From: Candidatus Alcyoniella australis | GTDB lineage: Bacteria; Lernaellota; Lernaellaia; JAVCCG01; Alcyoniellaceae | DNA: 19,428 bases | NCBI GenBank assembly: GCA_030765605.1 | Contig: JAVCCG010000132.1 | Coordinates: 1-19,428 of the forward strand | Direction: 5' to 3' | Translations under genes and position numbers: made by a program | Shown: piece by piece, positions 1 to 19,428 of the stretch | How positions within the stretch are numbered: the stretch's first letter is position 1 | How the letters are laid out: the number at the start of each line of letters is the position of its first letter | The notes under the pieces: model-generated | Told to the model about the DNA's origin: nothing | Seen by the model: only the letters and a program-made list of their open reading frames with translations | Database searches by the model: none

Positions 1-34
1 ACGGCCGTTCGAACGATGATCTGAGGCGCAAGAC

Positions 35-127
35 CTCGAATAGGCGGATGGAGGGAGCTGAAATCATCCTCGCCGGAGGAAAACCAGCAACGATACTTGA
101 CTGCCCTCTTTCATAGGCGGCTCAAAG
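35..127 (-). repeat. Left copy of 93-bp inverted terminal repeat (3'-flank element)
   Basis: These 93 bases are the exact reverse complement of 19336-19428. Read on the minus strand, the element starts six bases after the stop codon of the YbjQ-family gene (stop at 133-135). It runs through a TATGAAAGAGGGCAGTC segment, a small TCCTC-CGGC-GAGGA hairpin and a CTATTCGAG end. The bases at 127-132 form an imperfect stem, GGCACC-TTTGA-GCCGCC, at the junction with the gene. Bases 1-34 lie beyond the repeat and hold only a 10-bp palindrome, CGTTCGAACG (6-15). No transposase or target-site duplication is visible. An alternative is a dispersed palindromic 3'-UTR element at which the assembly broke. Confidence 0.9.
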
Positions 128-132
128 GTGCC

Positions 133-453
133 TTACTGGTCGGCGAATTTAACCGCCGTGCCGTATGCCAACAGCTCGGCTGCGCCGGACATCACCTCGG
201 AGGTGGCGAAACGCACCATCACCACCGCGTCGGCCCCCAGTTGTTCGGCCTGAAGAACCATCCGGTCCAGAGCTTGTTCGCGGCTCTGGGCGAGCATCTT
301 GGTGTAGTCGGTGATCTCGCCGCCGATCAGGTTGCGAAACACCGCCAGAATGTCGCGGCCCACGTTCCTGGCGCGGATCGTGTTGCCGCGCACCATCCCC
401 AGAGTCTGGACTACCGGTTTACCCGCCACGTTCTCGGTTGTGGTGATAATCAT
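133..453 (-). CDS. YbjQ/UPF0145 family protein
   Basis: A 106-residue soluble protein that starts MIITTTENVAGK and ends YGTAVKFADQ. Several features match the YbjQ (UPF0145, heavy-metal-binding-domain-like) family: the N-terminal ITTT strand, the VRGNTIRARN segment, the GGEITDY segment, the LGADAVV core and the GTAV end. The length is normal for the family. No biochemical function is firmly established; members form small pentameric folds. The start is ATG at 451-453, which overlaps the anti-sigma stop in an ATGA arrangement and has a GGGAGA ribosome site just upstream. The same frame stays open upstream to 615, but that extension is arginine/proline-rich shadow of the anti-sigma gene. As the last gene of the sigma operon, it is probably translationally coupled to the anti-sigma factor. 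Confidence 0.88.
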   Translation of the reverse strand: MIITTTENVAGKPVVQTLGMVRGNTIRARNVGRDILAVFRNLIGGEITDYTKMLAQSREQALDRMVLQAEQLGADAVVMVRFATSEVMSGAAELLAYGTAVKFADQ

Positions 454-15328: not shown

Positions 15329-16096
15329 ATGCCGAAGAAAAAGAAGAACACCAAGTCCCATGCCCAGCGTAACGCCCGGCGGGCGATGAAGCGCTACAAG
15401 ACCGAGACGGCCCGTCGCAAGAAGGCCCACTCGGTGATGAGCTCCAACGCTGTGCAGCACCAGATGATGGGGCAGTTCGGCAACGTCGAGAATTTAATGC
15501 GCAACGTGATTGCGCTGGGCGAGATGTTCTCGACTGAGCCCGACTTGGTCAAACTGCGCTTCGACGCCGAGGCGCTGTGCGCCAAGTTCGACGTGACGGA
15601 CCGCGAGACCAACGCCGCCCTGCGCGACCTGTACTCCGATGAAAAAGTGCTGTACTACGCCGAGGACTTCGAGGGCTACTGGCGCGATCGGCGCCGCGAG
15701 CTGCTCCCCGAGCTGGTGACCGACGAGTTCGTCAAAGAGTGCGGCCGCGTTTTCGACGTGCTGATGCAGAAGAAGCGCGGCAAGAAGAAAGAATACCGCG
15801 CGGCAATGGCGGGCAAGCTGCTGGTCGAGACCCACAACGCGGCGCTGACCGAGGCCGACGTCGAGGACAACAACCTGTGGGAGCTGGTGTTCAACGCCAC
15901 ACTCAAAGAACATAAGCTCGAGCTGCCCGAACTGCCCGAGGAACCCGAAGAGACCGAAGAGACCGAGGAGTCCGCAGAGCCATCGGAGCAGGGCGAAGAG
16001 CAGCCGGCCGAGGAACAGTCCGAGGAAGAGCCGCCACAGTCCGAGGAAGAGCCCGAGGAGCAATCCGAGGAAGAGCCGCCACAGTCCGAGGAATGA
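15329..16096 (+). CDS. Charge-polarised protein of unknown function with acidic repeat tail
   Basis: A 255-residue protein that I do not recognise. The N-terminus (1-33) is extremely basic, MPKKKKNTKSHAQRNARRAM followed by further Lys/Arg, and could bind nucleic acid or ribosome. Residues 35-195 look like a helical globular domain with several Trp/Tyr positions and no membrane segment. The C-terminal 58 residues are almost all Glu, Pro, Ser and Gln and end in two copies of EEQSEEEPPQSEE. Such an acidic tail is probably disordered. The start ATG has an AGGAA ribosome site eight bases upstream. The exporter gene follows after 49 bases on the same strand and may be cotranscribed, though a functional link is not evident. 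Confidence 0.82.
   Translation: MPKKKKNTKSHAQRNARRAMKRYKTETARRKKAHSVMSSNAVQHQMMGQFGNVENLMRNVIALGEMFSTEPDLVKLRFDAEALCAKFDVTDRETNAALRDLYSDEKVLYYAEDFEGYWRDRRRELLPELVTDEFVKECGRVFDVLMQKKRGKKKEYRAAMAGKLLVETHNAALTEADVEDNNLWELVFNATLKEHKLELPELPEEPEETEETEESAEPSEQGEEQPAEEQSEEEPPQSEEEPEEQSEEEPPQSEE
16010..16093 (+). repeat. In-frame 45-bp tandem repeat in acidic tail
   Basis: A 45-base unit (16010-16054) is followed directly by a second copy truncated to 39 bases by the stop codon (16055-16093). The two differ at two silent third-codon positions. Both encode EEQSEEEPPQSEE. The repeat is part of the gene at 15329 and probably arose by slippage, so its copy number may vary between strains. Confidence 0.9.
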
Positions 16097-18556: not shown

Positions 18557-19060
18557 ATGGAAAACACAGCCAGATCGATAGAACTGCCGCGCAGCCGCGA
18601 CTGCTTTCTCTGCGGGTTCGAGAACCCACACGGGCTGGACGTGTGCATGCGTATCGTGGACCCGGGCGGCGCCGACGAGCACGCGCGCGCCGAGTTTACG
18701 CCGGCCAAGCGCCATCAGGGGTATGTCGGCGTGATGCACGGCGGCATCGCGGCCACGTTGCTCGACGAGGTGATGGGCTGGGCCCCGGCCTATCGCCGCA
18801 GGCGGATTTGCATGGCGGTCGAGCTCAAGCTGCGCTATCTAAAACCCGTGCCCGTGGACACGCCGCTTTGCATCATCGGTCGGGTCGAGGACGACAGCCG
18901 CCGTATCTGGAGCGTCAAGGGCGAGATCAACGGGCCCGAGGGAACGACCTATGTCAAAGCCGAGGGCAAGTACTTCCCCCTGAGCCCCGAGGACTCGGCC
19001 AAGGCCGACCAGATCGAGCTGATCTATGCGCCGGGATGCGCCAAACTGTTCTCAGAATAG
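18557..19060 (+). CDS. PaaI-type hotdog-fold thioesterase
   Basis: A 167-residue cytoplasmic hotdog-fold protein that probably hydrolyses an acyl-CoA or similar thioester. The N-terminal CFLCGFENPHGLDV (residues 16-29) is the cysteine-containing signature of one PaaI subgroup. The core helix has VMHGGIAATLLDEVMGW (59-75), where the HGG loop and the acidic residue form the usual active-site region. A conserved strand VELKLRYLKPVPVDTPL follows. The length is normal for the subgroup. The ATG is preceded by a GGGGG run as ribosome site. The gene lies 35 bases after the exporter gene on the same strand, so the two may act on the same acyl pathway. Its stop codon is followed at once by a palindromic repeat array. 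Confidence 0.88.
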   Translation: MENTARSIELPRSRDCFLCGFENPHGLDVCMRIVDPGGADEHARAEFTPAKRHQGYVGVMHGGIAATLLDEVMGWAPAYRRRRICMAVELKLRYLKPVPVDTPLCIIGRVEDDSRRIWSVKGEINGPEGTTYVKAEGKYFPLSPEDSAKADQIELIYAPGCAKLFSE

Positions 19061-19335
19061 GCACCTTGGAGGTGCACCAAGGCTCGCGTGTTACGCTGGT
19101 CGTTCAGCATCGAACCATGCCGCGTAGGCAGCTTGGGGCTGTATTAAAACTCGCGTAGTTCGCTGGTCGTTCAGCAACGATCCTCTCCGCGCCCGGCGGC
19201 TTGGAGGCCGCAGTAGAATTCGCGTAGTTCGCTGGTCGTAAGGCCACGATCCTCTCCGCGGCGGCAGCTTGTAGGCCGCAGTAGAATTCGCGTAGTTCGC
19301 TGGTCGTAAAGCCACGATCCACCCCACGGCGGCGG
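19061..19335 (+). repeat. Tandem hairpin-repeat array after thioesterase gene
   Basis: This stretch holds no gene. Directly after the stop codon is a hairpin, GCACC-TTGGA-GGTGC (19061-19075). Then come tandem units that begin TCGCGT and continue GCTGGTCGT: A 19084-19150 (67 bp, most diverged), B 19151-19219 (69 bp), C 19220-19287 (68 bp) and D from 19288, which runs into the 93-bp end repeat. Each unit has a fairly constant stem, GGTCGT with ACGATC, and a variable stem with an apex like CTTGGAG: CAGC/GCTG after A, GCGGC/GCCGC in B and C (the C loop is longer), and GGCGGCT/AGCCGCC after D (19331-19347). The pattern suggests a REP/BIME-like palindromic array or a structured 3'-UTR RNA. No associated protein gene is in the window. 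Confidence 0.88.
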
Positions 19336-19428
19336 CTTTGAGCCGCCTATGAAAGAGGGCAGTCAAGTATCGTTGCTGGTTTTCCTCCGGCGAGGATGAT
19401 TTCAGCTCCCTCCATCCGCCTATTCGAG
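19336..19428 (+). repeat. Right copy of 93-bp inverted terminal repeat
   Basis: This is the exact reverse complement of 35-127 and forms the end of the array after the thioesterase gene. It includes the 3' part of the 7-bp stem GGCGGCT-TTG-AGCCGCC, then TATGAAAGAGGGCAGTC, the TCCTC-CGGC-GAGGA hairpin and the end CTATTCGAG. The match runs to the last base of the window, so the true repeat may be longer. ATCGTTGCTG (19369-19378) is also complementary to CAGCAACGAT in unit B (19172-19181). Confidence 0.92.

Follow-up and report, generated by a model that had tools for sequence, protein, structure and literature searches.

A probable REP/BIME-like family of interspersed palindromic DNA repeats in Candidatus Alcyoniella australis

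Introduction

REPs retain the pairing of their stems through complementary changes (PMC2817692). They occur near stop codons, and those of E. coli have been described at 15 nt or less from them (PMC12306157). REPs are also targets of insertion sequences, several of which insert at the REP axis (PMC1525189). The window analyzed here is a whole contig (C132, 19,428 nt) of the 4.29-Mb draft genome of Candidatus Alcyoniella australis (G000), and a palindromic array lies near one of its ends. The original prediction, made from the letters of the window, described a hairpin array at 19061-19347 and offered three readings of it, namely, a structured 3'-UTR RNA, a protein-binding array, or a palindromic mobile unit.

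Results

The array (19058-19330) consists of four head-to-tail units with a period of 67-69 bp (~68 bp), each containing a palindrome (H1) and a second stem (H2) that is more conserved across the units than H1 (Table 1). The predicted array was found as these four tandem units plus a further palindrome, GGCGGCT/AGCCGCC, which is a junction and not a fifth unit. The arms vary between units and the apex is near-constant, staying close to CTTNGAG, in agreement with the prediction. Pairing of H1 is good in units 1 and 2, imperfect in unit 3 (an additional G next to the apex), and possible in unit 4 only via the upstream GCGGC at 19261-19265 with GCCGC at 19275-19279; thus, two of the five palindromes are imperfect, where a single poorly pairing unit had been predicted. 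The second stem GGTCGT/ACGATC, which had been assigned to every unit as a constant stem with a variable loop, occurs with a varying 6-nt loop in units 2-4, and unit 1 has a weaker version of it. As a whole, the four-unit array folds with an energy that is ordinary relative to shuffles (DNA z -0.81, RNA z 0.15), and four copies by themselves are thus weak evidence. Evidence beyond chance comes from the genome, which has 52 perfect copies of GGCACCTTNGAGGTGCC and 0 matches to the reversed control pattern, and from the matched-arm counts given below. Elsewhere in the window, a Glu/Gln-rich tandem repeat (16008-16093) lies near the C-terminus of a 255-aa protein encoded at 15329-16096.

Table 1. 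Features of the array and of the ends of the window
Feature	Positions	Strand	Details
Second copy of element end, reading out of contig	1-123	-	H1 right half GAGCCGCC joined to GGCACCTTT left half at 124-132
Upstream gene, hotdog-fold thioesterase (4HBT)	18557-19060	+	Stop codon adjoins unit 1
Unit 1	19058-19124	+	Thioesterase stop TAG 19058-19060; H1 GCACC-TTGGA-GGTGC 19061-19075; H2 region to 19124
Unit 2	19125-19192	+	H1 GCAGCT-TGG-GGCTGT 19128-19142; H2 GGTCGT 19165-19170 with ACGATC 19177-19182
Unit 3	19193-19261	+	H1 GCGGCT-TGGA-GGCCGC, one extra G, 19196-19211; H2 19234-19239 with 19246-19251
Unit 4	19261-19330	+	H1 arms mismatched (GGCAGC..TTGTAG..GCCGC); H2 19302-19307 with 19314-19319
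Fifth H1	19331-19347	+	GGCGGCT-TTG-AGCCGCC; left half from array, right half from multicopy element
Element start, insertion-sequence-like, cut by contig end	19341-19428	+	Same end at C56, C113, C136, C32 and the window's other end

Among the genomes searched, the array is one stretch of a lineage-restricted interspersed family. Array-like sequence was found throughout the genome (53 matches). A covariance model, as proposed with the original prediction, was built from 40 units and recovered at least 152 units in the genome, a lower bound with ~150 candidates scored per genome, and 0 units in the six relatives that make up its same-class kin in the collection. The perfect palindrome GGCACCTTNGAGGTGCC was likewise absent from the six relatives, and its reversed control pattern gave 0 matches in the genome. 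Frequent 16-mers and hairpin counts in 200 kb each of the relatives G002 and G005 revealed no comparable high-copy palindrome. The specific H2 pattern had no match in the genome_contigs collection (84,980 species) or IMG/VR, a search in which the genome itself was possibly left out. One match in the relative G009 lies inside a coding sequence and was rejected as chance.

In the basic unit (~68 bp), H1 precedes the A module, which is conserved (CAAAACTCGCG...H2...CCGCG). Neighboring units run head-to-tail or form inverted pairs with CCGCGWCGCGG as the joint, and the inverted partner is often a second A-module subtype. Extra palindromic modules lie beside the units, for instance, AAAGATCG-loop-CGATCTTT. 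The modules that recur next to units are the stems AAAGATCG/CGATCTTT and AATAATGTT/AACATTATT and the tail GCATTGNCTCGAGATT (L016, L019, L022, L024, L037, L109, and L110), and several contigs end inside them.

Position statistics were obtained from ~760 kb of contigs chosen for holding matches, using a home-made gene caller based on codon usage; in this set, 73 of 82 hairpins with stems of at least 4 pairs were intergenic. Among gaps of at least 100 bp, hairpins occurred in 13 of 26 where the flanking genes converge, in 11 of 114 between tandem genes, and in 3 of 64 between divergent genes. The apex lay between -3 and +10 nt from a stop codon in 17 sense hairpins, compared with 3.3 expected from the intergenic density (Poisson P ~1e-7), and only 2 stop-adjacent hairpins were antisense. 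Repeats often start directly at the stop codon, and several arrays in convergent gaps, including inverted pairs, fill the interval between the two stop codons. In three of the 17 sense cases, the gene ends in the TGA of the apex itself; contigs C17, C95, and C113 (apex at -3 and -2) have such genes, whose reading frames are closed by the repeat.

Four left-arm types (GCACC, GCGGC, CCGGC, and GCAGC) were found in the stretches fetched. When the apex CTTNGAG was required, the left arm was matched by its own complement in 114 cases and by the complement of another type in 8. Of the 126 units found by a profile search free of the apex condition, 112 have CTTNGAG; the arms vary, and the apex (TTNGA core) is asymmetric and fixed. 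Across 40 aligned units, three H1 pairs flip two-sidedly in many sequences and a fourth does so in two. In this alignment, 97.5% of H1 cells are paired, and 42 cells are altered on both sides versus 15.2 in shuffles, with the qualification that the copies are related and changed cells are not independent events. The predicted compensated change of the arms was borne out by both comparisons. H2, with 85% of its cells paired in the same units, shows zero two-sided changes and is therefore conserved without covariation.

Among units at different loci, the seven closest pairs have 21% differing sites in the H1 arms and 1.7% in the A module; the arms thus change ~12 times faster and are still mostly matched. 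Some unit pairs with near-identical A modules carry different matched arms, and therefore flips recurred or were exchanged between copies. When units were compared with their nearest neighbor by left flank, the H1 types agreed in 25 of 41 cases (8.6 expected); with the nearest neighbor by A module, they agreed in 11 of 33 (6.8 expected), or in 38 of 100 (20.8 expected) at a looser threshold. Judging from arm and A-module divergence and from the flank agreement, whole H1 hairpins seem to have been exchanged or rewritten at the DNA level faster than their surroundings change.

Selection on RNA pairing was taken by us to predict more G-U than A-C on the sense strand. H1 shows no G-U excess (12 G-U versus 14 A-C), and H2 has 59 G-U versus 30 A-C. 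For 82 of 109 units, H2 folded in isolation is the more stable on its antisense strand. A scan of the array for terminator-like sites found none, and no Rfam family reached its gathering score in the window. With no G-U excess in H1 and array folding that does not exceed that of shuffles, the data give no support to selection on RNA structure. The original prediction had taken the compensated arms as a sign of selection for pairing; the compensation is real, but these counts, together with the missing two-sided changes in H2, do not support selection for RNA pairing.

An HUH-enzyme gene elsewhere in the genome had been suggested as a possible mobilizer. A gene of this type is present, the single RAYT of the genome (190 aa, NF047646, 146 bits at a cut-off of 80, C95:13328-13902), but it is not flanked by the repeat, the nearest copies being ~3.7 kb away. 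RAYT-family matches were found in all six relatives, in most genomes above the curated cut-off, and the repeat in none. Among named genomes, the RAYT has distant relatives only (25-29% identity). No GTAG, GTGG, or CGTC tag was found at the foot of H1 in 126 units, where the 5' neighbors are mostly CGCG/TCGC; GTAG lies a few nucleotides upstream of the H2 stem in only 46 of the 126, and just 40 contain CGTC, which does not form an end tag. As a RAYT-associated REP in the strict sense, the repeat fails on two features, the flanking copies and the GTAG tag; it is possible that it works like a REP.

Six contig ends, including both ends of the window, share a sequence beginning GAGCCGCCTATGAAAGAGGGC (the others are L010, L011, L012, and L013). 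To the left of this element stands half a hairpin, whose type differs between copies (GCGGC in four, GGCACC in one, and CCGGC in one), and this places the border of the element within the H1 apex. At the left end of the window, the GGCACCTTT left half directly follows the stop codon TAA (133-135, minus strand). A reading frame in the element, read by eye, ends in EPVIEKIVAAYEARPFER before a stop, and ~18 codons of a possible gene are visible. One end of the element is all that can be seen, its body being absent from the assembly. An IS110 transposase was rejected as the owner of the element, none being present in the assembly. The IS3-type genes (rve) at C85 and C98 are not bordered by an H1 pair.

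Discussion

The array and its copies probably constitute a REP/BIME-like family of interspersed palindromic DNA repeats confined to this lineage, as characterized by the observed copy number, restriction to one genome among those searched, position, arm matching, and faster change of the arms than of the A module. Of the three readings first offered, the mobile unit fits best, and the selection for RNA pairing implied by another is unsupported. The family would spread as a non-autonomous DNA element. Its units accumulate at the 3' ends of genes, in many cases immediately at the stop codon, a place where insertions would be tolerated. The apex has a fixed, asymmetric sequence, whereas pairing is all that the stem has to provide; the hairpin is therefore probably read in folded, single-stranded form, the mode of recognition of HUH (Y1) transposases, and the candidate enzyme would be the RAYT, the only one found. 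New arm types may come from copies trading whole hairpins or from template switches that correct an arm as the DNA is replicated, and a putative effect on mRNA ends would be a by-product.

The competing explanations differ in what they take the matched arms to mean. Template switching during replication has been reported to yield matched changes, creating and repairing hairpin stems (PMC8794818), and if it rewrote one arm from the other, the matching would be uninformative on function and the repeats inert debris. The ~12-fold faster, mostly matched change of the arms and the similar G-U and A-C counts in H1 agree with such a mutational origin; the asymmetric apex, which is nearly never altered, and the dominance of just four arm types, which suggests exchange among copies over free rewriting, make it a possible but doubtful account. 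That the single NF047646 transposase recognizes and copies these hairpins, as in a strict RAYT-mobilized REP, is unlikely: a RAYT far above the cut-off, inverted dimers, high copy number, and a fixed loop with a free stem speak for it, and are set against a RAYT without flanking repeats, the lack of the tag, and relatives that carry RAYT-family matches without the repeat. Hairpins in the transcript could instead protect mRNA 3' ends or slow termination at the adjacent stop, with RNA-pairing selection keeping the compensation. The first hairpin indeed adjoins stop codons mostly in sense, convergent gaps are favored, H2 has some G-U excess, and E. coli REPs at 15 nt or less from a stop codon have been reported to stall ribosomes (PMC12306157). 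We nevertheless regard a structured 3'-UTR RNA as improbable, given the covarying stem without G-U excess, the RNA folding score of the array, the greater antisense stability of most isolated H2 stems, hairpins that lie antisense to tandem genes, and an array with neither a terminator-like site nor an Rfam family.

Two further readings concern recombination. H1 could be the joint of an unknown recombination system in which modules and the multicopy element are joined at CTTN|GAG and the arms are interchangeable half-sites. Reciprocal mismatched half-hairpins (CCCGGC/GCCGCC and GGCGGC/GCCGGG) with identical A modules, at G000:C17:57224-57288 and C56:14745-14807, look as if produced by a crossover at the apex, and the six element copies start in the apex with differing left halves. 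The idea is weakened because breakpoints between near-identical arrays peak 6-11 nt from the apex (the hairpin edge or variable arm positions) and not at it, and we give it little credence. Integron attC-like sites, palindromes whose structure rather than sequence is conserved, would share the position after stop codons and the variable yet paired arms; their core sites (RYYYAAC then GTTRRRY) occur in 0 of 126 units and the tandem units have no genes between them, so this identity was rejected as extremely improbable.

Read as a REP-like family in a little-known lineage, more than 100 copies in one genome are a natural replicated test of how palindromes change, since arm changes can be separated from background drift over many copies. 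The result suggests that compensated changes may come from exchange or rewriting at the DNA level, and it calls for caution with covariation tests that treat such changes as proof of functional RNA.

The multicopy element sits at the palindrome axis, as do the REP-targeting insertion sequences ISRm22, IS621, and IS1397 (PMC1525189), but unlike theirs its transposase was not recovered. With the CGTC-tagged REPs (PMC3733652), the repeat shares the lack of a dedicated transposase, the prevalence of dimers, and the location downstream of genes; it differs in that CGTC is found in a minority of units and not as an end tag. In REPINs (PMC3116915), two inverted palindromes are one apparently dispersed unit, and the same holds here, except that the palindromes differ, the pairs combine two A-module subtypes, and the mobility is putative. 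From REP/BIME sequences (PMC2817692, PMC12306157), the repeat is set apart by its 68-bp two-hairpin unit without a GTAG-type tag at H1 and by a RAYT gene that it does not flank. The likeness lies in short palindromes with more than 100 copies (here, at least 152 units), mostly extragenic (73 of 82 hairpins), arranged in inverted dimers and mosaic arrays, often within 15 nt of stop codons, and kept paired by complementary changes.
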